From Bryopsis sp. KO-2023 (Eukaryota > Chlorophyta > Ulvophyceae > Bryopsidales > Bryopsidaceae), in assembly GCA_030272585.1 (NCBI GenBank), contig BSYQ01000006.1, positions 4,489,001-4,553,000 of the forward strand: DNA of 64,000 nucleotides, read 5' to 3'. Positions 10,700 to 58,321 of this stretch are shown in pieces. The notes beneath the pieces are model-generated. The model was not told the origin of the DNA and searched no databases. It saw only the letters and a program-made list of their open reading frames with translations. Positions within the stretch are counted from its first letter, which is position 1. The number at the start of each line of letters is the position of its first letter. The position numbers and the translations under genes were made by a program.

Positions 10700-11123
10700 T
10701 TTCGCGAGGGGCAGTCTCGAGCGTAATGCCCTCGACGCCCACACTTGTAACACTTCACCTCTCCGTCTGCTTTTTCTTTCTTCCAGACTGGCTTATTTCT
10801 TTCTCTCTCTTTATCACCTCGCTGTTTCTGCTGTCTCTGTTGTCGCCTTCTTCCGACGTAGTCCAATTCCATGTGATCCGATCTGCGATTTCCGCCGCCG
10901 CCGCTGCCGCCGCCGCCGCCGCGATCTCGATTCAAGATCGAACTCCCAGATTGAGCTCCTCCCCACCTTTCCGCCACTCGAATAGCTTCATCCAAGGTCT
11001 TGGGGTTTTGGAGGTCGGTCTCGATACCAACCCTCCCTCGCAAACCATCGACGAACCTGTGTATTTTCTCGCCCTCTGATGCGTCGGAAATATACAACAT
11101 CAGCTGCCTAAAGCGATGCGTGT
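10696..11123 (-). pseudogene. gag: beta1 gag, 3' part with zinc knuckle
   Basis: Encodes the C-terminal half of Gag: the helical segment containing HRFRQLMLYISDASEGE, a glycine-rich linker, a basic stretch and the CCHC knuckle [14 protein letters not shown], which binds RNA during packaging. The stop overlaps the pol ATG. Alpha1 separates it from its 5' part at the duplicated CGTGT, and the 5' part carries a large deletion. Confidence 0.85.
11119..11123. other. target-site duplication of alpha1, left copy (CGTGT)
   Basis: CGTGT stands at 11119-11123 and again at 21222-21226, directly outside the two LTRs. Removing alpha1 plus one copy restores the beta gag sequence seen intact near 53236. 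Confidence 0.95.
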
Positions 11124-11545
11124 TGATAGTGAAGCTTGTGGGTGACGCAATAGTGGTCGGCTGTGTTGATTGGATTCGTGATAACTTGCTGGCTAACGCA
11201 AGTATACTTGTGGGGTTTGTTGGTTTAGACAACTCTCTAGCTAGCGCGGTTGTGAACGCTACTAGAGCACTTGGGTTGGGAAGTGATTGCGTCAGGCAAA
11301 CACTTAACACACACACACACACAAACACACACACAAGCGGGAACACACCAATCCCACGAATCCCGAGTTCTTACAAAATAAAGTGAATGTCAAAACAACG
11401 AGTGGGCCTCTTAAGTACCCCTAAGTGTAGTACGCTGACGCATGCCCCAAACTCTGGGTCTAATCTGTCTTACTCGCGAACCCGCATGCGTCAGCCACCC
11501 TCGGCTCTATCCCAAACTACCTCGTATAGCGCTAAAAGACTAACA
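11124..11545 (-). repeat. alpha1 3' LTR (422 bp)
   Basis: Limits TGATAG...CTAACA on the plus strand. It contains a (CA)n run, four TGACGCA-type motifs (11143-11149, 11288-11294, 11436-11442, 11487-11493) and a 12-bp inverted repeat, GCTGACGCATGC at 11434 and its complement at 11484. Confidence 0.95.
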
Positions 11546-25598: not shown

Positions 25599-25772
25599 TG
25601 TTAGGTCCCTGTAGGTTTTAGTGAGTCGTTGCTGAAGTTGAGACTGGGGTCACACACTTTCACAAACCAGAGAATTAATTTTACAAGTGTTCTCTCTGAA
25701 CTTAACCCCCTAGAACCCGTACTAACCCGTACTACACACTCGTACTGCAAAATGAGTGCGATCAACGTATCA
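25599..25772 (-). repeat. gamma1 3' LTR (174 bp)
   Basis: Plus strand TGTTAGG...CGTATCA. Very short for a 10-kb element. It contains 'cccgtactaa' twice in tandem; no clear TATA box. Confidence 0.95.
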
Positions 25773-25793: not shown

Positions 25794-25826
25794 AAAGGGT
25801 GTCCACACCCGTAGAAGAACCCAAAA

Positions 25827-25867
25827 AGAAAGAAAAAGAAAAGAAAAGAAAAGAAAAGAAAAGAAAA
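25827..25867. repeat. (AAAAG)n microsatellite in the gamma1 3' untranslated region
   Basis: About seven units of AAAAG/AAAGA in the 155 bp between the G-run and the ORF3 stop. Confidence 0.85.
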
Positions 25868-25927
25868 CCCCCAAGGAAAAACTGTCGCTGTCCGGCTCTG
25901 ACGCTCTGGCTCTGGCTCCGCGCTCGC

Positions 25928-27796
25928 TCACTCTGTCTCTGAGTCCAAGCCCTCGAGATCCCACATCGTTCGTAGGATGTATGTCAGCCGGGATCCAAGC
26001 TCCTTGACACCGGTTTTCGAAGGGAAGGCTGCGGATTTGACCCGACACACCTGACATGGTAAGGTGAGCTGATCAGTGGCATCCGGGGGTGGAAGCGATG
26101 GGAGCGGAAGAAAATCCTCCGCACGTTTCCCGAGGCGAAGATGCTCCGCGGTCATATCGAGCGGCCGGATACTTTTATCCGCGAGCCACCGATTGATGAC
26201 CCGATCCATTACATGATGATGGGGCCAGTGTGTGGGACAAACGTAGTGAGCCCCACAACTGGTTTTTATCCCGACACCATGTTGCGTTCCCGCGCAGTAG
26301 TAGCACTTCGTTCCCGCGAGTGCTGGATCGTGCGTGCCTTTGATCTTCTTGAGCGCTGCACGCAACTCTTTCGCGTCCTTCGCGCGTGTGCGTTTCTTCC
26401 CCCGCTTGGTGCTTTTCTCCGCGCCCTTTTTGTCCGCTTCCTTCACTTTTTCCGCATCCGCCTGAGTCGACGGCTCCCCTTTCTTGGTTTCAGCGGTTGT
26501 CTTTTTCTCCGCGTCCGCCTTCTTTTGTTTTCCCGCGTCCGCATGTGTTTTCTCCGCGTCCGCCTTTTGTTTTTCCGCAGCCGCCTTTTTCTCCGCATGT
26601 GTTTTCTCCGCGTCCGCCTGTTGTTTTTCCGCGGCCGCCTTTTTCTCCGCGGCTGCTTTCTTTTTCTCCGCAAGTGCTTTGAGCATTGCTGCTTTGACGA
26701 GTGCTTTTGTTTGTGCGTCCTCCGCGCTCAGCGGTGGTTTTGAACCTGTCGGTTCTTCCGCTATGACGTCTTCGTTGTCGTTATCGTCAAGGGAACTCTG
26801 GGGTGGTTTCGCCAACTGCTGTGAGATATTTTCCGCTGCCCCGTCTATCCGGCTCAACCAGTCGTTCACTTGGTCCAAATTGTGCGCCTTCGTAAGGTCT
26901 ACGTTTGTGATGGTTATCTCTTTGACCTTATGCATATCGACCTGATCTTTTATCCGGCCATCCCTCACCAACTGCGCCTGTGTTTTCGCGGTGTCCAGAC
27001 GTACTCCCACGAGTCCGTGTGAGAAACTCGCGAGTGACTGCGGAATGTCCATGAGGCTGGCCCGAAGCCGGCTGACCTCAACCTTGGACGCCACCAACTC
27101 GGACATTAACACGCGGGCAGTCGTGCTGCTGCAGAAATTGTCTCCTTTTTCCGCCTTGGCGAGAGCGGCTTTCGTGGCTGCCAACTCTTTTTGGACCGTG
27201 GCGAGGTGCTTGTAACGTTTCTCCGCCTCGCTGATGAGCTGCTTGTTTTCCTTGTGGTACCAATCTGTATCCGCTTGAGCTTTGGTGGCTGCTTTCCGGG
27301 AGAGGGTCAGATCGGTGGTCAGCTGGGTGATTTCCTTTGCTTTCGCGGAAATTTCTTGATCCCGCGCGGAAATTATTTGATCCTTTGCGGAATTTTCTTC
27401 CTCTTGCGCGGATAACTCTCTTTTGATGGTCTTGAGTTCCGCTTCCGCACCGCGGGCTTTCACTTGAGCATCACTCAACTGCTGTTGAAGAGCCCGGTAT
27501 CGATCCTTCCAATCCGCCTCCAGCTTAATTTTCTCCGCCGTCTGTTTCTCCTCTGTTTCCCGGAGTTTCGCCGCCAGCTCACAGATTTCCGCCTCCTGCT
27601 CATCCCTTTTTGTCACACCCTCCTGAAGCTTCGTGTGTAATTTTTCGTAATCCGCCGCCACATTTGCATGTAATTCCACTGCCTCAGTTCCAGATTCTAA
27701 GGCTTCCGCGAGCTCCGTTTCCAAGGCCTCTGCCTTTGTTTTCCACTCATCCCTCTGCTGACGGAGTCGCTCCAAATGCTCGGATGTTCCAGACAT
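25928..27796 (-). CDS. gamma1 ORF3: coiled-coil protein with RING-like Cys/His module (622 aa)
   Basis: ATG at 27796 (aaaATG). Residues about 5-250 are nearly continuous coiled coil. Residues about 365-440 are a low-complexity Ala/Glu/Lys repeat (AEKKKAAAEKKAAAEK type), then a basic patch. Residues 498-584 carry C-x2-C-x12-C-x2-H-x2-C-x2-H-x57-C-x2-C with CYYC, CGAHYVCPTHW and CQVC. The ligand order and the 'H-[LYW]-V-C' core match the ORF3 of alpha and beta despite little other similarity. It lies between pol and the 3' LTR, same strand. Function unknown; zinc binding is inferred from the pattern. Confidence 0.85.
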   Translation of the reverse strand: MSGTSEHLERLRQQRDEWKTKAEALETELAEALESGTEAVELHANVAADYEKLHTKLQEGVTKRDEQEAEICELAAKLRETEEKQTAEKIKLEADWKDRYRALQQQLSDAQVKARGAEAELKTIKRELSAQEEENSAKDQIISARDQEISAKAKEITQLTTDLTLSRKAATKAQADTDWYHKENKQLISEAEKRYKHLATVQKELAATKAALAKAEKGDNFCSSTTARVLMSELVASKVEVSRLRASLMDIPQSLASFSHGLVGVRLDTAKTQAQLVRDGRIKDQVDMHKVKEITITNVDLTKAHNLDQVNDWLSRIDGAAENISQQLAKPPQSSLDDNDNEDVIAEEPTGSKPPLSAEDAQTKALVKAAMLKALAEKKKAAAEKKAAAEKQQADAEKTHAEKKAAAEKQKADAEKTHADAGKQKKADAEKKTTAETKKGEPSTQADAEKVKEADKKGAEKSTKRGKKRTRAKDAKELRAALKKIKGTHDPALAGTKCYYCAGTQHGVGIKTSCGAHYVCPTHWPHHHVMDRVINRWLADKSIRPLDMTAEHLRLGKRAEDFLPLPSLPPPDATDQLTLPCQVCRVKSAAFPSKTGVKELGSRLTYILRTMWDLEGLDSETE

Positions 27797-28118
27797 TTTT
27801 ATGCAAATGCTTTTTAATGTTTTGCTCTGGTGGCGGTTGCTTCTGAAGGTTCAGTGCGCTCGGCGTAAACTTTTGACGAAATAGGGCTGGAGGGTTGCAG
27901 CCTAGCTAGTTTATACAAGTGATAGAGTCACTCACTTGTCACTGATGGAAGACTTCCTCTATTGAGTGTCGTCTCATCCAAGGTTCTAGCCCGCTTTGAT
28001 ATTACCCTCGCTATCTTGACTCAGCTCTCTGTAGCTCGCTCTTAGATGTATTTGATTATGGGTGAACTGATACCAACACATCAACCATCGTTCCCTTCCC
28101 CATATCAACCTGTATCAT
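27797..28118 (-). promoter_or_regulatory. gamma1 pol-ORF3 spacer with candidate internal promoter
   Basis: 322 bp without a gene. The minus strand has 'ACTTGTATAAAC' with TATAAAC at 27915-27909, 119 nt before the ORF3 ATG, the same spacing as in the alpha elements. Confidence 0.5.
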
Positions 28119-31100
28119 CTAAAGAGGTTGTTTCCGCCGCCTTGTCCGCCTTTCTTCCCGCTTAGAGCGGATTTCCTCTTTGGTCGGCAAGCGCGTGCGG
28201 TTTCTGAGATACTCTGCCAAGATATCGCTGGCATTGGCCAGGTGGGCTTCTGGCTCCCAGGTGGCTTCCATCAAATCATAGCCCTTCCACAGAATCAAGT
28301 ACTCCCGACGGTTGGGTGTGCCTCGATCCCGCAGAATACGCTCGACCTCATATTCAATGGCGCCATCCACCAACTCCCCTTCGGGAGGTTCCACCTCCCG
28401 CTCATCATCTTTTGACAAGCGGTTGTATGCCTTCAGCTTGGAGACATGGAAGGTAGAATGAATAGTCCAATGGGGTGGTAGTTGCAGGCGATAAGCGACT
28501 GTGGATATCGCTTTGTCCACTTTGAATGGCCCGACAAACCTCCGGCGGATTTTTGGTGGGATCTTTTGCAAGGATTGCAGCGGAATAAATGTACTCCGCA
28601 CCAAAACTTCATCCCCTTCTTTGAAGATTACTTCCCGCCGCCGTTTGTTCGCTTGGACACACATCCGCTCTTGTGCGGTTGCATACTGCTGCTTTGCCTG
28701 CTGCAGTTGCTCGTCCATTCGTTTCACCATTTCGGTTGCCATTTCGGACTCTTCTTTCGCCGTTAACTTTTTCTGCACGGTAATTTGTCCCATATGCTGC
28801 CCATACAACAAGTGTGCTGGGGCATAGCCGGTTGACACATTGCGGGAGTTGTTGGCAGCAAATTCCGCTGTCGCCAAGAAATCAACCCAGCGGTCTGGAT
28901 ACCGCTCCACATAAGGCCGCAAAAAGTCTTCCAACACCCGAATAGTAACCTCTGACTGCCCATCTGTTTGTGGGTGGTAGGCTGTGCTCATTCGGAGTTG
29001 GGTTCCCAGAAGTGAAAATAAAGACCGCCAGAAGGAACTTGTGAATCTGGGGTCTCGATCGGAAATTATCACTTTGGGGAGGCCATAGTGTTTGTATATT
29101 TTGTCCACAAACAACTTAGCATATTCCGGGGCGGTTATTTCCTTAGTGCAGGGTGCGAAGCGAACGTACTTGGTTAACCGATCAACAAATACCGCGATGG
29201 CGGTGAACCCACGTGACTTTGGTAAATCAGTCACGAGGTCAGTGGTGATCTGTTCCCACTTTGTTGTCGGTATTGGGAGTGGATGCAGAAGCCCTTTCTG
29301 CTTCGTCGTATCAGCTTTTGTCCGCTGACAGACAGGGCATGTCCGCACGTATGCTTGGACATCCTTTCCAACTCCTTTCCACCAGTAGTATCGCTGTAGC
29401 ACATCCGATGTCCGGGCGGCACCTGCGTGTCCAGCGCTCGGAACATCATGGAACTCCCCCATAACCTTTTTCCGGTATCCATTTGGAACCACTAGTACTT
29501 TGTCTGAGGTGGGAGTTGCTTGATAGTACAACCAGCCATCCTCGAACGAAAGTTTCGTGGGTTTACCCGCTTGAATTTTCGTGACTTCCGCCTGCAGTTT
29601 TTGATCTGCTGCAATAGCGGTCTTCCATGCATCCGCTTCATCCACCACCCAGGCGGACAAAGCATGAATTTGATCCTGTGAATCAGGAAGGCTTCGGGAT
29701 AACGCATCCGCCAGTACGTTGGCTTTACCAGGCACATAGACGATTTTTGGATCGATGGAATCAAAATACCCTGACGTATACCATCGGGATTGTGTCCGCG
29801 ACATTTTAGCTTGGGTCATGAAGTGGGTTATCGGCTGATGGTCTGTCATAACCGTAACCTCCCCAGGCGCTCCTTCGAGGTAATGCCGCCATTGGCTGAG
29901 CGCATATGCTACAGCCCCCAGCTCCCGCTCATATGCGGAATATCGTGTCTCAGCTGGTTTTAATCGTCTTGAAAGGTAGGCTATTGGCTGTAGCCCCTTT
30001 CCATGGTCCTGACACAGAACTGCTCCATATGCAGTTCCTGATGCGTCCGTTATTACGGTGTACCTAAGAAGCGGATCGGGTAGGAGAAGTATGGGGGTGC
30101 GGGTGATCTTTTGCTTGAGTTTGCTGAAGGCTTCGCGCTGAATAGGCCCCCATGTCCACACATGATTCTTTTTGATCAGATCATGTAAGGGTCCTGCAAT
30201 CCGCGCAAACTCTGGTATAAACTTACGATAGTAAGATACCATGCCCAGAAAACTTCGCACATCCCCAACTGAGCTCAACTCCTTCCATTCTTGAATAGCC
30301 CGCACTTTATCACTCATTGGTTGCAGGCCTTTCCCTGACAAATGATATCCCAGATAATCGGTCTCGCTGACCCCCACTTCACACTTGCTCGCTTTCGCGT
30401 AGAGCTTGTGTTTGTGTAACCGCTCGAATACCTGTTTCAAATGATCGACATGTTCTTCCACTGAATTGGAAAACACCAGAATGTCGTCAATGAACACAAC
30501 CACAAAGTGGTCCAAAAACTCCCCCAACAAATCCTGTACCATAGTTTGAAACTGGGCCGGACAGTTGGACATTCCGAAGGGACAAACGAGGAACTCGAAA
30601 TGCCCGTATCGTGTGCGGAATGCAGTTTTTGGGGTATCCTTTGGCCGGACTGGAAATTGCCAGTAGCCCGAGCGGAGGTCGATCTTGGTGTAGATCTTCG
30701 CTTTAGCGAGCCGGTCCATTAACTCTTCGGGGAGCGGAAGTGGATAGCGGTTTTTGATGGTGTAGTGGTTGATCCATCTGTAATCAACACACATCCGCAG
30801 TCCGCCGTCTTTCTTAGGGACAAAGAGTATGGGGGCTCCCCAGGGACTCTCTGACGGCCTAATCTTCCGTTGCTCGAGGAGATAATCCACTTGTGTCCGA
30901 ACTTCATCCAATTCAGCCGGAGAAAGTTTGTACAGGGGACGGTGGATTGGGCTCATACTCTCATCCTCAAGGTCGATCTTAAATTCATGACCCTTGCGGA
31001 CGGGAGGTATGCCAGGTGGGAGATCTTTTGGAAAAATGTGGCTATATTCCTCCACCACAGAGCGGATATCCGGATGCATCTGATCATGCAGCAACTTCGG

Positions 31101-32229
31101 TACCTCCGTCTCTTGTGGTGTGTTGGTGCCCGCTGAAGTTTGAAGGCTATCAACGGTTACCCCTTCATACGGATATTGCATCAAGTGATTGCTATCCGTG
31201 GGGTCAGATTCACGCACCACCACCAAGTAAGCCAAACTATCTGTGGCTTCAGTTTGCTTCTTGATGTAGCGGAATATCTTCTTGTGGGTGATGAGAGGTG
31301 TGGTTTCATTCGCAAGTTGAAGATAATCAGTCGGTCTTTCCTTTACCGGTACTGTTATCCAACCTTGACCTTGGCGAATGTTGATAGTTCCCTGTGCAAA
31401 GTTTATGGACGGGTTATTGGCGATGAGCCACGGTAACCCTAACACGATGTCATATGTGAGATGAGGAAAAACATCCGCAGAAAACTGGGTTTTGTATCCG
31501 CCCAACTGCATATTGATGTTTCCGCATCGTTTGTCCACATTGCAAACAGACCCGTTGGCTAATGAAACGGTCTTATTACACGAGGAGAACTCTAACCCCC
31601 AAACGATCCACAAGTTTCTGCGCTACATAATTTTCCGTAGCTCCACAGTCCAAATAAGCGGAGATTGAAACTCCCCCTATCCGCCCCTTAAGCTCATATC
31701 CCATGAACTTAAGGTGGTGATTATTTACCAGCGGGTTAAAACTGTCTTGAAGGTAATCCCCACCTTCAACCCCTGGTTGTTTCTTTCTGTCCGATGCCCC
31801 CCTTGCGTCGGCGTCAGACGGAACCCTTGGGCTGGTCCGGTCTAAACTTTTTACACTTCCTTCCGAAGCCTGTTTCTCTCCACAAGGCGGGATAGATTCC
31901 AGGTTGCTATCTCCGGAGGAACTTCCAGAGTCTTCATGTACTGAACCAACACTTTCCGCCAACTCTCTGCCGGAAGTGCTTAGGATGACCGTACTTGAAT
32001 CATCCATCCGCTCTTTGTCACCAAGTTTTGTACTCATCAGCGGATTTTCAGCCCTCTGGGCGGGATTTCTTTTTGACTCTTTCTCGGTCTTTTTATTCCC
32101 CTCTCGTTCTCTTGCTCGTGACTCCCGGAGCTTCTGACGTCTGCGATGTCTATATCTTCGGCGTCTGGCTCTTTTTCTTCTGGCCGCATGGAGTGAAGTC
32201 TCCTCTATGCGGCGTGATCTTTTAGCCAT
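28119..32229 (-). pseudogene. pol: gamma1 Pol, broken by one extra G
   Basis: The pol ATG at 32229 overlaps the end of gag. A very basic N-terminus ([15 protein letters not shown]) and the protease motif [11 protein letters not shown] are read until a run of five G (complement of 31596-31600), where gamma2 has four. The frame then shifts. RT ([10 protein letters not shown]), RNase H (VITDASGTAYGAV), the integrase finger (CPVCQRTK), integrase core (ISDRDPRF, TAYHPQTDGQ) and chromodomain (YLILWKGYDLMEATWEPE) follow in the restored frame down to the stop at 28119. The enzyme domains themselves look undamaged, so the lesion is minimal and recent. Confidence 0.9.
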
Positions 32230-40482: not shown

Positions 40483-40487
40483 GTCTT

Positions 40488-41033: not shown

Positions 41034-41453
41034 TGATAGTGAAGCTTGTGGGTGACGCAATAGTGGTCGGCTGTGTTGGTTGGATTCGTGATAACTTGCT
41101 GGCTAACGCAAGTATACTTGTGGGGTTTGTTGGTTTAGACAACTCTCTAGCTAGCGCGGTTGTGAACGCTACTAGAGCACTTGGGTTGGGAAGTGATTGC
41201 GTCAGGCAAACACTTAACACACACACACACAAACACACACACAAGCGGGAACACACCAATCCCACGAATCCCGAGTTCTTACAACTAGAATGGAATGTCA
41301 AAACAACGAGTGGGCCTCTTAAGTACCCCTAAGTGTAGTACGCTGACGCATGCCCCAAACTCTGGGTCTAATCTGTCTTACTCGCGAACCCACATGCGTC
41401 AGCCACCCTCGGCTCTATCCCAAACTACCTCGTATAGCGCTAAAAGACTAACA
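41034..41453 (-). repeat. alpha2 3' LTR (420 bp)
   Basis: TGATAG...CTAACA. A G8-run polypurine tract lies just outside (complement around 41457-41465). Confidence 0.95.
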
Positions 41454-41648
41454 TACGCCCCCCCCGCAAAAAGTGGGCGCCCACGCACACCAAAACACAA
41501 AGAAAAACAAAAACACAAAAACACAAACACAAAACTCACCCACTCCCATACCCACACCCAACTGTCTTGGACCTGTCTCTTGCTCTGACGTCTCTGACAG
41601 CTGCTGCACGCACACACTTGGTCGACGATAACTCCTTTTCCCTCCTCC

Positions 41649-43463
41649 TTAACGCTGTTCCTGCGCTTGCGCTTGCTGGATAGCACGCTGCTCCTGCGCT
41701 TGCGCTTGCTGCACTGCACGATACCGGACACAGGGATCAAATGCGGCAGCCACCCGCTTGGACTTTAGGAATGGCAGATCCCTTGTGATGCCGGACACCT
41801 TGAGCTGCCGCTTCACACACATGTTGCAGTGTGGCAACTTCTCGTGCTCAGCCGGGAACGGAGGGATTTCTTCGAACGTCGAGCGTGTCAGCTTCAACAT
41901 ATGGGCAGGTAGAGAGAATGGGGAGACGGTGGCGATGGACTTGTTGTCCACTTCCGCGACTTTTTGGACCGCCGTGACGATGCGCCCCAGCATCGAGTAT
42001 GCCAACCAGTGAGCATCACACACGAGGTGATACCCACAAGGAAGGACGGAATACTTCTTCTGCGTCAGCCGCTGAGCACTTGCCTGCATTGGGCTTCTCC
42101 CGCACCAAATGCACATGGGCAACTCGTGAAAGTGCCGGTTGCCGCGGTAATTTTGCAAGGCTCGGTCCCTGGGGTTAGTATATTGGACCTTCGGCCATTT
42201 CTCTGACGCAGTGATGGGGTTGCAAGCCTCCTCGATATCCTCCCGTGACAGGTTCACTTCGCTAGGTGCAGCATCCACTTTGTCCTGAGCAGCCGCCCTT
42301 AGTCTTCTGAGCTTAACCTTTTCTCGGAAAGCCCGAAGTGCTGCTTCTGTTGGAGCTAACTCCAACGGTGGATGGACCGCACGCTGAACCTCTGTCACCT
42401 GGCTTGGCCCTTCATCATTCCTGATTTCCCCGTCCTCCAGTTCAGAACTAGGACCTTCGAGCCTAGGAGGTGGACTGCCGAAGTCAATTTCTTCGTTAAA
42501 ATCCAAGTCCAAAAGCTCCTCCTCTCTCATGTCGAATAAGTCCTCCCCCGGTGCTATTGCGGTAGCCTCATCTCCGGGAGTCTGAACTGTTGGCGCTGGT
42601 TGTGAGGGTGCTGGAGTCTTTAATGCGGCAGCCTTTAACTTGAGTAACAAGTTGGCTCTTGCTGCATCTCCAGGCATACGATCCCTCGGTGGCTCACCAC
42701 CTTCATCGTCACCGTCCTCTCGCCTTCTCTTTCCGTGTGGATCTTCATCCCTACACGGCGAGCTTGGGCGTTTGTTTTTCCCTTTCCCCTTGCCCTTGCT
42801 TGAGCCTCCCGCATCATCGTCCTTGGACGGTTCCAGATCAAGTGTTGCGTTTGACAACAGAACTTGGACTTGGCGATCCAGTTCTTCGCGTACCCGTGGT
42901 GCTGGTACCGGCGGGTTCAAACGCAGCATCTTGTCCGTTGTTTCGCTCTGCACTTGAAGTTTTTCAGAGCCGTCTCTGAGGGACTCTCCCAGCAAATCGA
43001 TCTGCAGCTCTTGTTCTGCCAATTCCTTCTTAAGGTTGTTGGCTGCTGCACTCCACGCGGTTGCTACAGCTCGCTGCAGCGTTTCCTCTACCGCGGTAAA
43101 TCGATCCACCATTCCCCCGAGAGCTTGCTTGCGGAGGTCATTCTCACGATGGTTAGCCATCATGTGAGATTGGAACCGCTGCTTCTTCAACTTCATGGCT
43201 TCCAATTTTTCTTCCAAGACCTTAGTCTTGTCCTCCGCTTCTTTCCTTTCCGCCTCCGCCTTTTTCTTGGCTTTCTCCGCTGCCTCCTTCGCAGCTTCAG
43301 CTGCTTTCGTCCGGTCACTCAACTCTGCGAGCTGCCGGGTTAAGGCCTCATTGTTCTGCAGCACTTCCTCTGCGGTCGACGTAAAGTGCTGCAGCTCCTC
43401 TTCTTTTTGAGCTACCTCCGCTTCCAACCTCGCAATAATTGCGGCGGGGGTATCAGCAGCCAT
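41649..43463 (-). CDS. alpha2 ORF3: coiled coil plus RING-like module (604 aa)
   Basis: Same architecture as alpha1 ORF3 with scattered substitutions; all eight Cys/His ligands are kept. The region upstream of the chosen ATG is out of register with alpha1, which supports starting at MAADTPAA. A TATA box on the minus strand lies at 43584-43579, 121 nt before the ATG. Confidence 0.85.
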   Translation of the reverse strand: MAADTPAAIIARLEAEVAQKEEELQHFTSTAEEVLQNNEALTRQLAELSDRTKAAEAAKEAAEKAKKKAEAERKEAEDKTKVLEEKLEAMKLKKQRFQSHMMANHRENDLRKQALGGMVDRFTAVEETLQRAVATAWSAAANNLKKELAEQELQIDLLGESLRDGSEKLQVQSETTDKMLRLNPPVPAPRVREELDRQVQVLLSNATLDLEPSKDDDAGGSSKGKGKGKNKRPSSPCRDEDPHGKRRREDGDDEGGEPPRDRMPGDAARANLLLKLKAAALKTPAPSQPAPTVQTPGDEATAIAPGEDLFDMREEELLDLDFNEEIDFGSPPPRLEGPSSELEDGEIRNDEGPSQVTEVQRAVHPPLELAPTEAALRAFREKVKLRRLRAAAQDKVDAAPSEVNLSREDIEEACNPITASEKWPKVQYTNPRDRALQNYRGNRHFHELPMCIWCGRSPMQASAQRLTQKKYSVLPCGYHLVCDAHWLAYSMLGRIVTAVQKVAEVDNKSIATVSPFSLPAHMLKLTRSTFEEIPPFPAEHEKLPHCNMCVKRQLKVSGITRDLPFLKSKRVAAAFDPCVRYRAVQQAQAQEQRAIQQAQAQEQR

Positions 43464-43913: not shown

Positions 43914-46900
43914 CTATTCTCTTCCTTTCTGCAACTCTTTTCTTTCTTTCTCTTTAAATGCGCGAAGTATATCTGGTGCGTTAACCAGATTAGCTTCAGG
44001 TTCCCAAGTAGCGTCAAGTAGATCGTATCCTTTCCACAGCACTAGGTATTCACGATTGCGTTTACCTCTAGCCCTTAGGATATTTTCGACCTCATACTCT
44101 ACTTCGCTACCAATCAACTCTCCTTCTGGAGGTTGTATTTGCCTGCTGTTATCACTCGAGGCGTGATAACGCTTGAACTTAGAAACATGAAACACTGGGT
44201 GAATGAGCCATGTTTCCGGAAGTTGAACTCTGTAAGCCACCTTTGATATTTTCTCCACAATTTCAAAGGGACCCACAAATCGACGGCGCAGTTTGGGACT
44301 CACTTTGTTCAAAGCAGCCAACGGAATAAAACGGCTTTTTATCAGGACTTTATCCCCTTTCTCAAAAGCAATATCTTTTCTCTTCTTGTTTGCACTCACA
44401 CACATTCTGTGTTGTGCTCGAGAGTAATATGCTTTTGCGGTATCTAAGTCCTGTGCCATCCGTGCTACCATAGTCTTAACTGCTTCCACTTGAAATTGCG
44501 TTGCCGTCCCACCAATGTTTGGTGTTTCGGGATGGTACCCATACATCAAATATGCAGGTGCGAACCCTGTACTCGCATTCACTGCATTGTTTGCTGCAAA
44601 CTCTGCTGTAGGTAAATACTCAACCCACTTATGGGGATACCTCTCAGCATATGGCCTTAAGAAATTTTCCAGAGTACGTATGGTAACCTCACTCTGCCCA
44701 TCCGTTTGAGGGTGGTAAGCTGTACGCATACGAATCTCTGTACCCAGAGCTTTAAAAAGCGTCTGCCAGAACTTGCTGGTAAAGCGAGGGTCTCTATCAG
44801 ACACAATCACTTTAGGTAGGCCATGGTTGCGGTAAACATGTTCGATAAAAAGTTGGGCGTATCCTGCAGCGGTAATCTCTTTAGTACATGGGGCGAAATG
44901 CACAAACTTGGTAAGTCTATCGACAAAGACAGCTACAGCACTAAACCCATTGGATGCTGGTAGATCTGTCACCAAGTCAGTGGTAATCTGCTCCCACTTC
45001 CGCTCAGGTATTGGCAGGGGTTGAAGTAAGCCCATAGGCTTCTGTGTGTCAGCCTTTATTTGTTGGCACACAGGGCATTCGCGCACAAATGCCTTCAACT
45101 CATTCATCCACCCCTTCCACCAATATCGCCGCGCTAGGATTTCTCCTGTTCGCGCTGGTCCTGTATGGCCTGCTGAAGGTGTCTCATGGCACTCCTTCAT
45201 GATCTTATTGCGCTGGCCTTTAGGAACCACCACTTTCTCGACTAATCCTCTCTTTGGGACCGTCCAGAGTATTCCCTCTCTGAGGAAATATCCCTCAACT
45301 TCCTCGCCACTCTCAAGCTTCCGCAATATCTTCACCAAGGAGTTGTCAGCTTGGAGGGCTTGTTTCCACTCGTCTTGGCTTGCTTGATGCACTTGCCAAG
45401 TGGAAATGTTCATCGCAGTTTCCACGGGCTTAGGAACACTGCGGGAGAGAGCATCTGCTAACACATTAGCCTTGCCTTTGATATAGGAGATCTTGGGGTT
45501 GATCGAAGTCAGGTACCCCGCCTCAAGCCATCTTGCTTGGGTTCTAGAAAGGTTCCTCTGCGACAGAATATGCGTCAGAGGTTGGTGGTCAGTGAACACT
45601 GTTACTCCACCCGCACAACCTTCTAGATAATGTCTCCACTGCACCATCGCATAACATATTGCACACAACTCTTTATCGTATGGTGCATAGTTAAGCTCGG
45701 CAGGCTTGAATCTACGTGAGAGGTAAGCTATTGGCTGTAGCCCCTCTCCGTGATCCTGTGTTAACACGGCACCGATGGCCTCATTCGACGCATCAGTGAT
45801 CACAGTGTAAGGCAGTGACGCATCTGGAAAAATAAGGACGGGAGCTTGACTTAAACGCTTTTTCAGTTCATTGAATGCGCCACGCTCAACCTGTCCCCAT
45901 CTCCAGGGATGATCTTTTTTCACTAAGTCATGGAGTGGTCCAGCAACATGTGCAAACTGGGGAATGAATTTCCTGTAGTATGAAACCATTCCAAGGAAAC
46001 TACGTACATCACTAACACTCTGTAGTTCCTTCCACTCCTTCACTGCCTTCACTTTTTGTTCCTGTGGTTTTAACCCACTTCCGCTAATGCGGTAGCCAAG
46101 ATAGTCTACTGTTGCGACAGCCAGCTCACTTTTACTTGCCTTAGCAAAAAGTTGATATTCTGCTAGTCGCGACAGGACTTTCTCTAAGTGTTCGGCATGC
46201 TGTTCCATGTTTTCAGAGAAGATGAGTATGTCATCAATAAAGACAACAACAAAATCATCTAAAAACTCTGCGAGTAGGTCTTGCACTAGAGTTTGGAATT
46301 GCGCTGGGCAATTGGTTAGCCCAAAAGGCGCTACCAAAAACTCAAAGTGACCGTATCTCGTGCGGAACGCTGTTTTATCTGTATCAGATGGCCTTACTGG
46401 AAATTGCCAGTAGCCTGATCGCAGATCTAACTTTGAGAACACTTTGGCTTTGAACACTCTATCCATCAATTCTTCTGGCAGGGGTAAAGGATACCGGTTT
46501 TTCACCGTCACCTTATTGATCCACCTGTAATCCACACACATCCTTAAGCCTCCATCCTTTTTCGGTACAAACAGGATTGGCGCGCCCCAAGGGGACTCGG
46601 ATGGTTTGATTTTCTTCTGTTCCAGAAGGTAGTCCACTTGTGCTTTCACTTCATCCAGCTCTGCTGGTGAAAGCTTGTATATTGGACGATGGATAGGTGT
46701 TGGATCCTCCAGGTCTATCTTAAATTCATGACCTTTTCTCTTCGGAGGGATCCCTGGGGGTAAATCACGAGGGAACACACCACGGTGTGTTTCTACCACC
46801 TTTTTAATTTCGGCAGGGGTGTCTGAACGAATAAGTTTACCAATCTCATCCTCAGTGTTGAATGGCTGTGTTCGCTCTATTGCGTCAGGCAATTCATGTT

Positions 46901-47921
46901 GGCCTAAAGCTTTCTCTTCAGATTCTTGCACTACAACCATGAATGCTGTCTCTGTTTTGAGATGACGCATCATTCGTTTAGCTGAACACTCAGTCACTGG
47001 CACTTCTTGCAGTATCGACTGTACTTTTCGTTCAGGTTCAATACTCTCTTGGGTTGGATGACGCAACGGGAGATGAAATACTTGGCTGTTTTTGCAAACT
47101 GAAATCTCATTTTGCTGAAAGTCTATGCGGGGGTTTTCTTTCTGCAACCAAGGCATGCCCAATATTAGGTCATAACCAAGGTCTGGGAACAGATCCGCTT
47201 TCATTTTGCACTTCAGCCCTCCTATCTTTACTCGGAGGTTGTTACAGCTGCCAGACAGTTCTTTAATATCTCCGTTTGCCAACATTGCTCTCTTTGAGCT
47301 TGGTGTAATCGACAACCCGAGATCACGCGCTACCTTATCATTGATATAGTTTGCGGTACTTCCACAATCAATGAATGCATAAAGGTCCGTGGTCTTGATC
47401 CGTGCTTTTACTTCGTACCCTCTCACAGGCACTTCTTGAATTTTTAACAGAGGGCATGTGTCACCCTTGGTTGACGAAGTTGATCGAACTTCTGACACAT
47501 TAACTCGCTCTGTGGTAGACCGCTGGGTTGTTTCTGACCCACTATCGTCTACGTCTGCAGGCAGGGACTCCTGTAGACTACTCTGCGACTCCAATGAGCC
47601 CACAGATTCACTAACAGAGGGAAGAGATGCAGATGACGCATGAGGCGCGTCCATCTCATCCGGTGTGCTTTCCTTCTTTTCATTTTTCCAATCGCAGTTG
47701 TCATGTGCCGATTGGGTAGATGTGGAGAGTGTCTCTGTTCTCTCTTCACGCGGTGTACTAGTCCGCGCCCCAGGTTTTCCGCTGTGAGTACAAACCTTTT
47801 TCGAGGCACCTACTTTTGATCTTAGCTTCCTACGCCGCCTACGAACTCTGTTTCGCTTACGACGTTTGCGTCGGCCAGGCTCAGACGAAGCAGTTTCCTG
47901 CCTGGCGGTCAGTTTAACATT
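43914..47921 (-). CDS. pol: alpha2 Pol, entered by -1 frameshift
   Basis: The ATG-started part (47654 to 43914) is 1246 aa with the domain order of alpha1. Relative to alpha1 the pre-ATG segment carries a 3-nt deletion that keeps the frame open from the slip site, which suggests this segment is translated. A substitution near the integrase active-site region gives RMRTAYHPQ instead of RMSTAYHPQ. Catalytic motifs are otherwise retained. Confidence 0.92.
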   Translation of the reverse strand, partial: NVKLTARQETASSEPGRRKRRKRNRVRRRRRKLRSKVGASKKVCTHSGKPGARTSTPREERTETLSTSTQSAHDNCDWKNEKKESTPDEMDAPHASSASLPSVSESVGSLESQSSLQESLPADVDDSGSETTQRSTTERVNVSEVRSTSSTKGDTCPLLKIQEVPVRGYEVKARIKTTDLYAFIDCGSTANYINDKVARDLGLSITPSSKRAMLANGDIKELSGSCNNLRVKIGGLKCKMKADLFPDLGYDLILGMPWLQKENPRIDFQQNEISVCKNSQVFHLPLRHPTQESIEPERKVQSILQEVPVTECSAKRMMRHLKTETAFMVVVQESEEKALGQHELPDAIERTQPFNTEDEIGKLIRSDTPAEIKKVVETHRGVFPRDLPPGIPPKRKGHEFKIDLEDPTPIHRPIYKLSPAELDEVKAQVDYLLEQKKIKPSESPWGAPILFVPKKDGGLRMCVDYRWINKVTVKNRYPLPLPEELMDRVFKAKVFSKLDLRSGYWQFPVRPSDTDKTAFRTRYGHFEFLVAPFGLTNCPAQFQTLVQDLLAEFLDDFVVVFIDDILIFSENMEQHAEHLEKVLSRLAEYQLFAKASKSELAVATVDYLGYRISGSGLKPQEQKVKAVKEWKELQSVSDVRSFLGMVSYYRKFIPQFAHVAGPLHDLVKKDHPWRWGQVERGAFNELKKRLSQAPVLIFPDASLPYTVITDASNEAIGAVLTQDHGEGLQPIAYLSRRFKPAELNYAPYDKELCAICYAMVQWRHYLEGCAGGVTVFTDHQPLTHILSQRNLSRTQARWLEAGYLTSINPKISYIKGKANVLADALSRSVPKPVETAMNISTWQVHQASQDEWKQALQADNSLVKILRKLESGEEVEGYFLREGILWTVPKRGLVEKVVVPKGQRNKIMKECHETPSAGHTGPARTGEILARRYWWKGWMNELKAFVRECPVCQQIKADTQKPMGLLQPLPIPERKWEQITTDLVTDLPASNGFSAVAVFVDRLTKFVHFAPCTKEITAAGYAQLFIEHVYRNHGLPKVIVSDRDPRFTSKFWQTLFKALGTEIRMRTAYHPQTDGQSEVTIRTLENFLRPYAERYPHKWVEYLPTAEFAANNAVNASTGFAPAYLMYGYHPETPNIGGTATQFQVEAVKTMVARMAQDLDTAKAYYSRAQHRMCVSANKKRKDIAFEKGDKVLIKSRFIPLAALNKVSPKLRRRFVGPFEIVEKISKVAYRVQLPETWLIHPVFHVSKFKRYHASSDNSRQIQPPEGELIGSEVEYEVENILRARGKRNREYLVLWKGYDLLDATWEPEANLVNAPDILRAFKEKERKELQKGRE

Positions 47922-50560: not shown

Positions 50561-50691
50561 GGTCTCTCTGCCACTATTTGGGAGTACTCAACAACCACGG
50601 TTGGAGTTTCTCTCTACCAAACAAACAAACAAAAACGTTTGTTGCGCCACGTTCACAAGTTTCGATCTCAAGAACTTAAAGTTCTTGCCTA

Positions 50692-50703
50692 GCTCCGAAA
50701 CCA
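50692..50703 (-). other. alpha2 primer-binding site
   Basis: Minus strand TGGTTTCGGAGC, 2 nt after the 5' LTR. Confidence 0.85.
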
Positions 50704-50705
50704 AT

Positions 50706-51125: not shown

Positions 51126-51130
51126 TTTAC

Positions 51131-52669: not shown

Positions 52670-53665
52670 ATGGAGCAACAGGTGGCTGAGTTGAGGGCGG
52701 CGTATGAGGAGGTAATGGGAAGGTTGAACCGAGTGCAAGGCGTGGTCGAAGAAGTACCGGGAATGCTGAGCACGGCGGTCAATGAGGCTGTGGGAAGCTC
52801 CATTTTGGAGCAACTAACCGACAAAGTGGGAACAGCAATCGGGGCGGCAACTGCAGCACAGGCTGGAACGGCGGCTGGAAGTGGTGGTCGAGGTAATGAC
52901 CTGAGAAGCAAGCCAGCCCGACCTGATCTGTGGGGAGGCAGGCAGAATGACCCTCCTATCCAGGACTGGTTGTTCAGCCTCCGAGTGCATTTTGACGCCA
53001 CCCACGTCGAAGATGGAGTCTCGAAACTCCGCCTGGCAGGATCTCTACTGAGAGGGCCAGCCGCGACATGGTGGAGGACAAGAGTGGAGGAGTCGGAGAC
53101 TGATGGAGGCCGACCTTTGCCGACGTATGAGGATTTCTGTGAGGAGCTGAAAAACCAGTTCGGAGAACCACATTTTTTGCGACGCACACGGACAGAATAG
53201 GCGAATTTACGCCAAGGCGGAATGTCTGTGCGGGAATACACGCATCGCTTTAGGCAGCTGATGTTGTATATTTCCGACGCATCAGAGGGCGAGAAAATAC
53301 ACAGGTTCGTCGATGGTTTGCGAGGGAGGGTTGGTATCGAGACCGACCTCCAAAACCCCAAGACCTTGGATGAAGCTATTCGAGTGGCGGAAAGGTGGGG
53401 AGGAGCTCAATCTGGGAGTTCGATCTTGAATCGAGATCGCGGCGGCGGCGGCGGCAGCGGCGGCGGCGGAAATCGCAGATCGGATCACATGGAATTGGAC
53501 TACGTCGGAAGAAGGCGACAACAGAGACAGCAGAAACAGCGAGGTGATAAAGAGAGAGAAAGAAATAAGCCAGTCTGGAAGAAAGAAAAAGCAGACGGAG
53601 AGGTGAAGTGTTACAAGTGTGGGCGTCGAGGGCATTACGCTCGAGACTGCCCCTCGCGAAAATGA
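52670..53665 (+). pseudogene. gag: beta2 Gag with in-frame TAG
   Basis: 331 codons from the ATG at 52670. A short coiled-coil N-terminus, then the capsid fold (RPDLWGGRQNDPPIQDW, LRGPAATWW, YEDFCEELKNQF), then a TAG at 53198-53200. The same frame continues (MSVREYTHRFRQLM) through a Gly-rich linker to the CCHC knuckle [14 protein letters not shown] and the stop at 53663. Beta1 reads TGG (Trp) at the TAG position, so this is a G-to-A nonsense change rather than a family-wide readthrough codon. Confidence 0.88.
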
Positions 53666-56600
53666 GTATGTTAGGTAAACTCGCAGGGTGTGAAGTTAAG
53701 GGGAAGCCTGCGAGTTCGAGGAATTCTAGGAATTCGAGGGATTTTTCGTTGGAAGAAACGTCCAAGGAGCCGACTAGACCTGATAACCAAGATAACCTAG
53801 AAGTCCATTCATTTGATGGGACAGATTTAGACATGACTAAGTTCGGATTTCTAGCAGTGGCTGAAACTGATAACCGAACTAGACAACTGATTACTGTGAA
53901 AGGGGAAATCTCAGGTTTTGCAGCTGAGATATTAATAGACTGTGGAGCAACTGATTGCTTTTTGGCTCGGAAATTTTGCGAGAAAAATAAGCTGGAATTA
54001 GAAGCACAAGAAGAAAAAGTTAGCCTGGCTGGGGGAAGTACCTTAGAATCTAAAGGGAAGATCAGGGCTACTCTCAGATTTGGAGATTTTGCTAGTAGGG
54101 AGATTTTTCATGAAATGTCTCTTGCTAAGTATGATGCTATATTGGGAAAAACTTGGCTGGCTAAGCATAATCCCCGGGTTGATTTTCGAACGAATGAGGT
54201 AGTGGTTTCAGACGGGCTGAAAGAACATTTGATTCCTCCGGCAAACCCCGGAGAGGAGGAAGAGGAACAGTATGTGCTGATGGTGTTTGAAACATGTTTG
54301 AACAGAACTGACTCTGAACAAAATGTTTCCAGACAAGCTGAACTTGCAGCAGAAATCAGACAGGAATTTCCTAACACTTTTGTGGAAGAATTACCCAGTG
54401 AGATACCCCCTTCCAGAGGTATCGAACACACGATCCAGTTGGAACCAGGCACGGTTCCACAAAGTAAAGCACCTTATCGACTAGGCATCAAGGAAATGGC
54501 AGAACTGAAAACTCAGATTGCAGCCATGTCGGAAAAAGGGTTTATTCGACCGAGTAGATCACCTTGGGGAGCACCGGTAATTTTTGTACCGAAGAAGAAC
54601 GGGAAACTACGCATGTGTGTAGATTATCGGGCATTGAATAAGGTGACGGTGAAAAACGCTTATCCGATTCCGAGGATAGATGAACTGATAGATCAGCTTC
54701 ATGGCGCAAAATACTTCTCAAAAATAGATTTGTGTTCGGGATACTATCAAGTCAGGATGGCGAAAAAGGATTGGGCGAAAACTGCTTTTCGAACTAGATA
54801 TGGATCTTACGAATACACAGTTATGCCAATGGGTTTGACAAATGCACCAGCAACTTTTATGAATGTGATGAACGATGTTTTTCGACCACATCTGGATAAG
54901 TTTGTTATAGTTTATCTCGATGATATCTTAGTTTACAGTCGGAACTGGGAAGAGCACAAGGAACATCTGAGACAAGTGTTTCAGCTACTCGAAAAACACA
55001 AACTTTACGTTTCACCGGACAAATGTGATTTGGGGATGACAGAAGTCGAATTTTTGGGACACATAGTCGGAAGAGAGGGACTCTCCGTGGTACCTAAGAA
55101 AGTTTTAGCCATTAAGGAGTGGGCACAACCTCAGACAGTTCGGGATATTAGGTCGTTTTTGGGTTTAGCGAATTATTATCGGAAATTTATTAAGGGATAC
55201 TCTGGGATTGCAACGCCGTTACATGAACTAACAAGGAAGGAAGTTAAATGGCAGTGGACTGAAAGTCAGGAGAAAGCGTTTCAGACGCTAAAGAAGAGCA
55301 TGCAGGAGGCACCTGTGTTAATAATTCCAGATCCGGAGTTGAGTTTTGAAGTAACTACAGACGCATCGGATTTTGCTATTGGAGGAGTTTTGACGCAAGA
55401 TCAAGGTCAGGGGCAACAACCAGCCGCATTTGAAAGTCGGAAATTAAATTCAGCTGAGAGGAATTATCCGACACACGAAAAAGAACTGTATGCGATAGTC
55501 TATTGTTTGAAAACTTGGCGACATTATTTGGGGGCGAGGAAATTTGTGGTTCACACGGACCACGCTCCGCTGAAATATATTCAGACGCAGCCTAAATTAT
55601 CCAGTAGACAGGCTAGGTGGATGGAAACTTTACAGGAATTTGATTTTGAGATTAAATACAAACCTGGAAAAGAAAATACAGTTGCAGATGCATTGAGTCG
55701 AAGGTCGGAAATGGAATTAAACGCTGTGGCAAAAGTCCGAGCAGGCGTAGTATTTCAGGATCAGGTTAGACTTGCGTATCAAGGGGATGAACATTGCAGA
55801 GAAGTTATAGCTAATTGGGAAGCTGGTGAAAAAGATCCGCGTTATAGGTGGGATGGCACAAAATTGTGGTATAGTCTGAAAGACAAATGGTTTTGGTATA
55901 TTCCAAAGGACAAAGAAATTACACAAACAGTGTTGGCTGAATGTCACGATCAGGCTGGACATTTTGGGAGACACAAGACTGTCGCAAATGTTCGAAAAAG
56001 ATATTATTGGCCTAGATGCACTGAGGATGTCGAACGATATGTTAGGACTTGTGTTGGTTGTCAGAAAAACAAGTCTAGCACTCAAAAACCATTGGGGTTA
56101 TATCAGCCAATTCCAGTTCCAGACGAACGCTGGAAAGAAGTTTGTTTAGATTTTGTGGGACCTTTACCTATGACACAAAAGGGTCATGATTATTTAGTGG
56201 TTATGGTCGACCGTTTTAGTCGAATGATCCACTTGGTAGCCACCACTACTGCAGTTACAGCTAGTGGGGTAGCTGAAATTTTCTTTGATACAATTTTCAG
56301 ACATCATGGGTTGCCAGAGGCTATTATTTCCGATCGAGATACTCGTTTTACAGGCCAGTTTTGGCGAAAACTGTGGGAATTAGCGGGAACTCGTTTAGCC
56401 ATGTCATCGGGATATCACCCTGAAACTGATGGAATGACTGAAAGGGCAAATCGAGTAGTCGGAGACATGTTGCGAATTTATATTTCGACCATAGGGGGTG
56501 ATTGGGACACTAAATTAGTGGCGGCTGAGTTTGCTTATAACTCATCCGTTCACTCATCAACAGGTTTTACACCTTTTTATTTGGTTTATGGGCAACATCC

Positions 56601-57207
56601 CAGATCCCCTCAGGATTTGTTAGACTCAGGTCCAGTTTCAGATGAATGGTGGACAGTTTGGGCTAAAAGTTTACAGCTGGCTCGGAAAGCGATTTTGAAA
56701 AGCCAACAGCGACAGAGGGCTGTCGCAAACCGAGGGCGGAGGGATGCAAGTTTTGCATTAAATCAGTATGTCTTTTTATCGACAGCTGATTTACCTTTAC
56801 CGCCAATGATGGGCCGGAAGTTGGTATCTAAGTTTTGTGGACCTTTTAGAATTATTGATATTGTGACATCAGTAACTTACAGGTTGGAACTTCCTAATCA
56901 CTGGAAAATACATGATGTTTTTCATGTTTCCAAGCTAAAAGCATTTGAAGATGGATCAGAAGAGTTTCCAGCCAGGGCTATTTCTCCACCTCCAGATCCA
57001 GTGGTGTTGGAAGGAGTCGAGGAATATATCGTCGAAAAGATCAAGACACATCGAACCAAACGGCGGAAAAAGAAGAATGTGACAGAGTACTTGGTTTCCT
57101 GGGAAGGATACGGATCGGAAGAGGACCAGTGGCTCCCGTCACATCACTTGGGTAATGCGCAGCAAGTGCTGCAGGAGTATTTACGTCAAAAATCTTCCAT
57201 GGACTAG
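53662..57207 (+). CDS. pol: beta2 Pol (1181 aa), complete
   Basis: The ATG at 53662 overlaps the gag stop as ATGA, so Pol probably arises by reinitiation. Domains: protease LIDCGATD near 92, RT with [10 protein letters not shown] near 418, RNase H with TTDASD near 566, integrase HHCC finger ([12 protein letters not shown]...CVGCQKNK) near 760-800, integrase core ([28 protein letters not shown]) near 830-945, and a chromodomain near 1118-1172 ([27 protein letters not shown]). No lesion seen. ORF3 starts 94 nt downstream. Confidence 0.95.
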
Positions 57208-57301: not shown

Positions 57302-58321
57302 ATGGTTGAGTTTGGTGGAGGAGTCAAAGCACTGTTGGAGGAGATTAAAAAGAATGCTGGAGCGATCGAGGGAGTGTCGGAAAGGATCAACAAAATGCTG
57401 GAGGAGTACCTGAAGGAAGGAACCAGACTGGAAAGAATCCAAGAAAGAGATGAGCAGGAGGCCCTGGAAAAAATGGCAAAGCTGGAGGAGGAAAAAGAAC
57501 AACTCAAGCAAAAGATCGGCGAGCTGGAAGAAGAAGGGGGATTTCAGGCGGAAAGAGATAGCTGGGAGGCTGAACGCACTCGGTTGCTCGACGACCGGGC
57601 GAAATATTTGGCGGAAAATGAGGACCTCAGCGTAAAATTGGCGATGGCGGAAACTTCAGCGGACGCGGCGAAAAGAGAGGCGGAAAAGCTGCTGATGGAG
57701 GGGGCAGATGAGGAAATGCGCCACAAGCTCGACGGGGTCGAAGACAAGCTGCGGGAAGAGCAAATGCGGAACCAACAGCTCAAGGGCCAGGTAGACTTGT
57801 TGAAGAGTATGGTAGAGTCCATGTCGGGAAAACCAAGCGGAGAAGTGAAGCACGAAGAGGGGGAAAAACACACTTGCGTGTTTTGTCGCACCCCGAGCAG
57901 CAACTGTCAGCCGACCGGAGAAGACTGCCAACGGCACTGGGTGTGCTCGAATATCGGGTGTCGGGATCGGGTGTGGCTGAGTATCAGTCTGGAAGTCGAT
58001 GAGGAAAAACGAGACTGGCGGAGAATGTGGGTACCAGCTGAAACAGGGCCACCAATGGTGCTACACTCGGAAACCTGCAAACTCTGCGCCTTGGGTTTCA
58101 AGTTGGGGGCGGATTATACTCGGGGAGTGTATTTAAAGGCCAAGCGGACCGTGGGCCCCCTGAGAAAATTCGAGGCAGCCGAAGACGATGCAGAACCAAC
58201 GGACTACGATGGGGATTGGGTCGTCAATGAGCCAGGCGGAGACAGTGGACCAGAAGGAAAGAAAAGGAAACCTCCTGGAAGTTCAGGGGGATCCAGAAAT
58301 GTGAAACTCAGAAAAGCCTGA
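57302..58321 (+). CDS. beta2 ORF3: coiled coil plus RING-like Cys/His module (339 aa)
   Basis: ATG at 57302 (acATGG), 94 nt after pol. Residues about 10-180 are coiled coil. Residues 192-261 carry C-x2-C-x13-C-x2-H-x2-C-x4-C-x38-C-x2-C (CVFC, CQRHWVC, CKLC), the same ligand order as the alpha and gamma ORF3 proteins and closest of the three to RING spacing. The C-terminus is acidic, then basic and Ser/Gly-rich (KKRKPPG). No signal peptide or membrane segment. Function unknown. Confidence 0.85.
   Translation: MVEFGGGVKALLEEIKKNAGAIEGVSERINKMLEEYLKEGTRLERIQERDEQEALEKMAKLEEEKEQLKQKIGELEEEGGFQAERDSWEAERTRLLDDRAKYLAENEDLSVKLAMAETSADAAKREAEKLLMEGADEEMRHKLDGVEDKLREEQMRNQQLKGQVDLLKSMVESMSGKPSGEVKHEEGEKHTCVFCRTPSSNCQPTGEDCQRHWVCSNIGCRDRVWLSISLEVDEEKRDWRRMWVPAETGPPMVLHSETCKLCALGFKLGADYTRGVYLKAKRTVGPLRKFEAAEDDAEPTDYDGDWVVNEPGGDSGPEGKKRKPPGSSGGSRNVKLRKA

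Follow-up and report, generated by a model that had tools for sequence, protein, structure and literature searches.

Accessory genes that are common to unlike mobile elements hint at what all of these elements must overcome, and several have been described. TET/JBP dioxygenases are carried by 11 lineages of fungal DNA transposons and, as far as the relevant part of that account extends, by no retrotransposon (Kojima 2025, PMC12730594). Host proteins with the Plant Mobile Domain act in gene regulation and in transposon silencing, and a screen of 121 angiosperm genomes detected 15 extra domains in LTR elements, with no RING among those discussed in the corresponding section (PMC9289625). For VANC of the VANDAL MULEs, a title among the references points to fast coevolution (PMC13317346, PMC6446971). 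Among the titles and abstract openings returned by searches of open-licence papers, no ORF in LTR elements of the kind considered in the present work was seen.

Here we present the analysis of a 64,000-nucleotide stretch of DNA (termed the window) from the coenocytic alga Bryopsis sp. KO-2023, in which a third open reading frame (ORF3) is found in several Ty3 elements, together with a search for related ORFs in the genome (91.1 Mb, 28 contigs). Sequence evidence agrees with a Bryopsis or close relative as host: one light-harvesting exon (L045) almost equals the siphonaxanthin-binding Bry-Lhcb1 of the PDB (8hlv), and rbcL is present on contig C28.

Results

Mobile elements of the window

The window is a pile of young Ty3 elements, comprising alpha, beta, gamma and one more Ty3 element (Table 1). 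Alpha copy 1 (11123-21221) is inserted into a beta copy and is 98.7% identical across 10.1 kb to alpha copy 2 (41034-51126), and gamma (25599-35843) is inserted into another Ty3 element; the two LTRs of each of these three elements are identical. The beta element starts at about 51176 and a second gamma begins at 58613. Reverse transcriptase, RNase H, integrase and a chromodomain were recognised by Pfam in the alpha, beta and gamma pols, and the Chromo profile scored above its cut-off in all three, which identifies them as chromoviruses.

The Ty3 element at 24170-40484 has its pol stop at 40100 and its LTR from 40247, leaving no space for an ORF3 after pol, and ORF3 is therefore dispensable for some Ty3 elements. 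The pol of this element is made up of 35827-38484 and 38487-40100, and a Dam-like adenine-methyltransferase stretch precedes its protease (PF05869, E 1.5e-5; 25.2 bits, under the cut-off of 28.1). Several tandem repeats with units of 3 to 78 bases occupy positions 1-8300.

Table 1 Coordinates of ORF3 and associated features in the window.
Feature	Position	Strand	Remarks
Alpha copy 1, 3' LTR	11123..11545	-	identical to 5' LTR 20799-21221
Alpha copy 1, ORF3	11741..13555	-	type-A finger ligands 11909-12205
Alpha copy 1, pol with chromodomain	14005..17745	-	
Gamma, 3' LTR	25599..25772	-	identical to 5' LTR 35670-35843
Gamma, segment without similarity to gamma2 (ORF3 with some 80 bases upstream and 120 bases downstream)	25811..27878	-	flanks 83% and 81% identical
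Gamma, ORF3 (622 aa)	25928..27796	-	coiled-coil-like N-terminus 27044-27796
Gamma, type-A finger ligands C498 to C584	26045-26305	-	
Gamma, pol with chromodomain	28119..31613	-	
Alpha copy 2, 3' LTR	41034..41454	-	identical to 5' LTR 50706-51126
Alpha copy 2, ORF3	41649..43463	-	type-A finger ligands 41817-42113
Alpha copy 2, pol	43914..47654	-	ORF length and place equal copy 1
Beta, pol with chromodomain	53608..57207	+	same sense as beta ORF3
Beta, ORF3 (339 aa)	57302..58321	+	coiled-coil-like N-terminus 57302-57832
Beta, type-B finger ligands C192 to C262	57875-58087	+	

Architecture of the ORF3 product

An initial annotation of this DNA had proposed that alpha, beta and gamma each encode, in sense between pol and the 3' LTR, a third protein that has a long N-terminal coiled coil and whose C-terminal module contains eight Cys/His ligands. 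All of these ORFs were found at the places claimed. The shared orientation with pol is true for beta, gamma and alpha copy 1 on the basis of Pfam, and the pol ORF of alpha copy 2 matches that of copy 1 in length and place; the location ahead of the 3' LTR was borne out in alpha and gamma, the beta 3' LTR not being delimited. The ligand spacings were re-measured and came out as C2C-x21-C2H2C2H-x60-C2C in alpha, with x12 and x57 in gamma and with x13, C2H2C4C and x38 in beta, in agreement with the annotation, and the core H-[LWY]-V-C was present in the three proteins. The modules are referred to below as type A (alpha, gamma) and type B (beta).

The N-terminal stretches are charged, free of proline and heptad-patterned. 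With a home-made heptad score (not COILS), computed over the first 60% of each protein, the best window was matched by 2/60 shuffles in alpha, 1/60 in beta and 0/60 in gamma, and the proline-free stretches measure 177, 177 and 251 residues, respectively. Applied to 16 finger proteins, the same home-made score gave a best window that no more than 3 of 60 shuffles could equal in any of them, as expected of coiled coils; their proline-free stretches range from 52 to 251 residues and reach just 52-92 residues in heli1, heli2, KDZb, F4, F5 and F6. Basic clusters of nuclear appearance were seen by eye in the finger proteins, and the Pfam scan of the proteins matched no signal peptide, transmembrane segment or envelope profile. 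The sequences thus support the proposal of a coiled coil joined to a C-terminal Cys/His module, probably a zinc binder, as third gene in several retrotransposon families. In the F2-F4 proteins (L050, L051, L054) a middle motif was noticed by eye, in which a basic cluster is followed by I-(L/D)-D-E-A-x-E-x-D and an acidic run.

Conservation and copy number

The ligand pattern is kept in all 30 copies that were read (12/12 alpha, 10/10 gamma and 8/8 beta), and pN/pS amounts to 0.061 in alpha, 0.194 in gamma and 0.099 in beta, the last value being based on five variable codons; these copies are the best-scoring of 71 alpha, 75 gamma and 120 beta matches, so that the ligand and pN/pS counts tilt to intact copies. 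The corresponding pN/pS-type ratio is 0.20-0.34 in the delta group (three pairs), and dN/dS is 0.28 between the two finger ORFs of the Helitron described below. Alignment of ten type-A sequences left seven ligands and one Arg as invariant columns; the third Cys is present in 10/10 and moves by one position.

Intact copies are numerous. Alpha ORF3 is stop-free in 70 of the 71 scored matches (71 of 261 candidates scored), beta ORF3 is full-length and stop-free in 52 of 120 genome matches (45 at 97% or above, 7 at 90-91%), and gamma ORF3 is full-length and stop-free in 34 of 75 matches (71 of 202 candidates scored). Decay of ORF3 in alpha, beta and gamma is ruled out by the intact copies, the kept ligands and the low pN/pS; the ORF is under purifying selection.

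Distribution among mobile elements

Related ORFs were found in nine Ty3 groups, namely alpha, beta, gamma, gamma2, delta, F1, F2, F3 and F5, in each of which a pol or integrase ORF was seen upstream on the same strand; gamma and gamma2 are counted separately, and the assignment of gamma2, delta, F1, F2, F3 and F5 to Ty3 is by BLAST alone. The initial description of the ORF as encoded by LTR retrotransposons proved too narrow, since the same kind of ORF is also present in a Helitron and in a KDZ DNA transposon, and these copies refute a Ty3-only feature. The genome search with beta ORF3 returned 120 matches, among which the finger-only matches fall into the delta group (29), the Helitron (5) and the KDZ element (7), the remainder being fragments and a few singles. 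In delta, a Ty3 pol or integrase ORF lies on the same strand in 5/6 loci read (L031, L032, L033, L035 and L044; BLAST).

In two Helitron loci (L036, L037) the finger ORF lies downstream of a long Rep/helicase (1344 residues in L036), which is recognised by Pfam as Helitron_like_N (E 1.1e-42) and PIF1 (E 1.5e-51). In 4/5 copies another finger ORF lies about 14 kb off, and in the fifth copy 24 kb off; its finger is 74-75% identical to that of the first. Both ORFs probably belong to one Helitron and not to a duplicated segment that contains a Helitron. Helitron-like units were noted at L036, L037 and L055 and on contigs C4, C7, C13 and C15, and 114-115 base tandem arrays stand behind one finger ORF.

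The KDZ element (L038-L040) has a KDZ-like transposase ORF whose KDZ (E 4e-4) and Chromo (E 6e-4) matches are both under the Pfam cut-off. It carries two finger ORFs on opposite strands, the first of type B and the second of type A, and one of the two is encoded opposite to the transposase. The repeated unit covers both finger ORFs, and the two types co-occur at 6/7 places with the KDZ type-B finger. L038-L040 also contain an array of 186-base tandem repeats, accompanied by an inverted copy of the repeat unit.

The KDZ type-A module found 125 places in the genome. Six further type-A groups (F1-F6) were opened. A pol or integrase ORF of Ty3 type lies directly upstream on the same strand in F1, F2, F3 and F5; F4 and F6 are known from the ORF alone. 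Type A is accordingly found in Ty3 and KDZ, type B in Ty3, Helitron and KDZ, and homologous genes were thus detected in elements with unrelated transposition enzymes. Many short or broken type-A finger matches cluster on contig C2 between 1.25 and 6.4 Mb; the sole copy of this group that was read (L056) has lost at least one ligand and looks degenerate, and the region is possibly one where old elements persist. Helitron, KDZ and delta loci have tandem arrays with units of 39-186 bases close to their finger ORFs; the tandem repeats adjoining ORF3 in alpha and gamma are all short (units of 5-14 bases), and beta has none next to its ORF3.

In a large protein collection, none of 3457 candidates qualified as a beta ORF3 homologue at E 1e-3. 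Viral contigs searched with gamma ORF3 and the Helitron ORF gave 34 and 5 pattern matches, respectively, none of which was confirmed.

Exchange of ORF3 apart from pol

The pols of gamma and gamma2 are 90% identical (pS 0.43, dS 0.64, dN/dS 0.087) and their ORF3 products 41% identical, with silent sites saturated in 4/4 parts (pS 0.76-0.88). At the DNA level, the match between the two elements breaks off at 27879 (83 bases upstream of the start of ORF3) and returns at 25810 (118 bases past its end), with no similarity at word size 7 in between. Fast evolution as the mere cause of this divergence is rejected because of the saturated silent sites against a pol dS of 0.64 and because of the sharp borders. 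ORF3 has been exchanged apart from pol in this pair, which is best read as the replacement of an ORF3 cassette, for instance by template switching. The F2-F3 pair likewise shows 81% identity in the compared pol part against 33% in ORF3; pol dS is about 2 for both F2-F3 and F3-F5, and a swap is consequently indistinguishable from fast evolution in these two pairs.

The module tree is short and unrooted, with three forks left open. It joins the type-A finger of KDZ to that of Ty3 F1 (81/92, a modest value) amid four Ty3 and two unassigned fingers, and a 100/99 branch separates this set from alpha and gamma; a single origin of the Ty3 label is compatible with its well-supported branches. By their pols, the bearers of type A fall into an alpha/gamma/F clade and those of type B into the beta and delta lineages. 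As alpha, gamma and F belong to one pol clade and are all type A, part of the spread may be vertical inheritance.

Relation between the two module types

Within type A, hhalign returned 16% for alpha-gamma, 76% for alpha-F, 88% for gamma-F and 89% for alpha against F plus gamma, the F profile including the KDZ type-A sequence, and all four pairs beat 40/40 column shuffles. Within type B, all ten pairwise BLASTP comparisons of a five-sequence set gave E <= 1e-8. Between the types, the full profiles yielded 1.2%, and with type B as partner the value was 1.3% for alpha, 0.3% for F and 0.8% for F plus gamma. These values, and a sixth ligand that is His in type A and displaced by two residues in type B, would suit two unrelated modules that converged on a Cys/His cross-brace and spread each on its own. 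Such convergence is a serious contender, to be held somewhat below an even chance, and against it stands gamma, which aligns with type B at 69% over 101 columns with 7/8 ligands in register and scores above 40/40 plain and 40/40 ligand-preserving shuffles. The view that beta carries the same module as alpha and gamma hence draws weak support, from the gamma comparison and not from alpha or F. On this mixed evidence, gamma may be the link that unites types A and B in a single old family, or the types may be two families; given the weak link between them, what is termed one family here may be two.

Comparison of the module with RING fingers

The RING consensus is C-x2-C-x(9-39)-C-x(1-3)-H-x(2-3)-[CH]-x2-[CH]-x(4-48)-C-x2-C. 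The module had been called RING-like, and its ligand order and core spacings do fit; strict spacing and profiles do not. Only 2/16 proteins (F4, F6) meet the strict consensus, two of the 16 being from delta: type B misses it through x4 between ligands 5 and 6, and 8/10 type-A proteins through a last loop of 49-60. CPxC, which is RING-like at the last ligand pair, occupies that place in 7/10 type-A sequences with a Lys two residues further on.

No Pfam family, curated RING profiles included, exceeded its cut-off with the modules or the full-length proteins. Below threshold, the modules matched Zn_Tnp_IS91 (E 0.0086, 1/10 type-A), Prok-RING_4 (E 0.025, 1/10) and Zn_ribbon_8 (0.08, 2/10), and the full-length proteins gave weak sub-threshold matches chiefly in the coiled parts. 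Searches of the PDB found nothing below E 0.02. AlphaFold2 models had a mean pLDDT of 40.7 for the gamma module (3 alignment rows) and 33.6 for the beta module (a single row) and are unusable.

Full RING membership is rejected on spacing and profiles, and filing the module as a RING would be unjustified in view of the spacing misses and the lack of a profile match. It may nevertheless work like a RING. A true but divergent RING E3 ligase, dimerising through its coiled coil, recruiting an E2 and ubiquitinating host silencing factors, would account for the fitting ligand order and core spacings, for the CPxC with its Lys, for the strict spacing of F4 and F6 and for the weak Prok-RING_4 match; its layout would be that of Bre1-type E3s, in which a coiled coil is followed by a C-terminal RING. 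We regard this as unlikely, as 14/16 proteins fail the strict consensus, the sixth ligand is His or displaced, the non-RING Zn_Tnp_IS91 outscores all RING families, none of which passes its cut-off, and neither a PDB match nor a usable AlphaFold model speaks for it.

Discussion

The reading that we prefer, at a probability of about one half, is that ORF3 encodes an exchangeable accessory protein which would help unrelated elements with something that they all require, most likely the evasion of silencing. Ty3, Helitron and KDZ elements share no transposition chemistry and all depend on being expressed from host chromatin, for which reason a benefit common to them would most likely be anti-silencing. 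In the mechanism we envisage, ORF3 would pass among mobile elements as a cassette, and its product would self-associate through the N-terminal coiled coil and enter the nucleus by means of its basic clusters. The eight-ligand C-terminal module, probably holding two zinc ions in a cross-brace-like manner, would then engage a host factor, and the element could be protected from host silencing if, for instance, a silencing factor were recruited or modified, possibly by ubiquitination. The zinc binding, the oligomerisation, the nuclear site and the anti-silencing role are inferred, and E3 ligase activity is only a possibility.

The product could alternatively serve the element itself, in packaging, nuclear entry, integration or the choice of target, with ORF3 taking the place of an envelope-like ORF. 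The position of ORF3 after pol, in sense, in the nine Ty3 groups read is in keeping with this, and a coiled coil with a zinc module would suit a structural part. It is nevertheless improbable as a general explanation, because the ORF occurs also in Helitron and KDZ elements, whose enzymes differ, and because KDZ has two fingers of different type, one of them opposite the transposase strand. A role in replication or integration may exist all the same, and it is hardest to set aside within the Ty3 groups.

Small Cys-rich silencing suppressors occur in some plant viruses, and ORF3 might similarly encode an RNA-silencing suppressor, that is, a coiled-coil Cys-rich protein binding small or double-stranded RNA or Argonaute. 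Its benefit would be common to retrotransposons, Helitrons and DNA transposons, and the basic clusters seen by eye would agree with it; against it, Pfam matched no suppressor family, and we hold this option to be slightly less probable still than an element-intrinsic role. Passive and fortuitous capture of a host gene from which the elements gain nothing is very improbable even though elements are known to capture genes, as the ligands are kept in 30/30 copies, pN/pS is 0.06-0.19, the ORF is retained in many groups and the small share of matches opened included no recognisable ordinary host gene with the module.

Taking anti-silencing as the preferred function, we tentatively suggest that the ORF may represent a family of anti-silencing effectors that apparently has not been described before and may consist of E3 ligases, encoded by a cassette that circulates among the LTR retrotransposons, Helitrons and KDZ elements of a coenocytic alga, such that unrelated parasites would share a public counter-defence gene. 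If this is true, the product could, in a cell with very many nuclei per cytoplasm, also serve elements residing in other nuclei. One kind of ORF is present in class I and class II elements together, is under purifying selection, has been swapped whole at least once and persists in many intact copies; host silencing in siphonous algae, and the sharing of counter-measures by mobile elements, thereby become open to direct testing.

With regard to known systems, the module resembles RING fingers in its ligand order and in the RING-like CPxC end of part of type A, and it differs from them in loop lengths, in the sixth ligand and in having no profile match. Among element-borne genes, the likeness to the TET/JBP dioxygenases lies in an accessory gene common to heterogeneous elements including Helitron and KDZ, in transfer between lineages and in the silencing escape proposed for it; in the part of the report concerned, that gene is an enzyme of known fold in fungi, whereas Bryopsis ORF3 joins a Cys/His module to a coiled coil and is carried mostly by Ty3 (PMC12730594). 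The Plant Mobile Domain is likewise an accessory domain of class I and class II elements, being carried by plant Ty3/gypsy and MULE elements, but it is another protein, of angiosperms, and Helitron and KDZ are unnamed in the section devoted to it (PMC9289625). The same source describes an extra ORF for an AlkB-like m6A demethylase in orchid Ty3/Gypsy, proposed to reflect host surveillance; this ORF differs in having a known enzyme domain and in its single element lineage (PMC9289625). VANC of the VANDAL MULEs is comparable, by description only, as an accessory protein encoded by the element that lifts the silencing of related copies, but it belongs to one DNA-transposon family and acts via non-coding DNA motifs (PMC13317346, PMC6446971). 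Retrotransposons of dinoflagellates and charophytes also took up a silencing-tied gene, that of cytosine methyltransferases, which are however enzymes and, as far as listed there, confined to retrotransposons (PMC5890265). Set beside these systems, the protein family specified by ORF3 is apparently new, the kind of arrangement is known, and its occurrence across both class I and class II elements is unusual.
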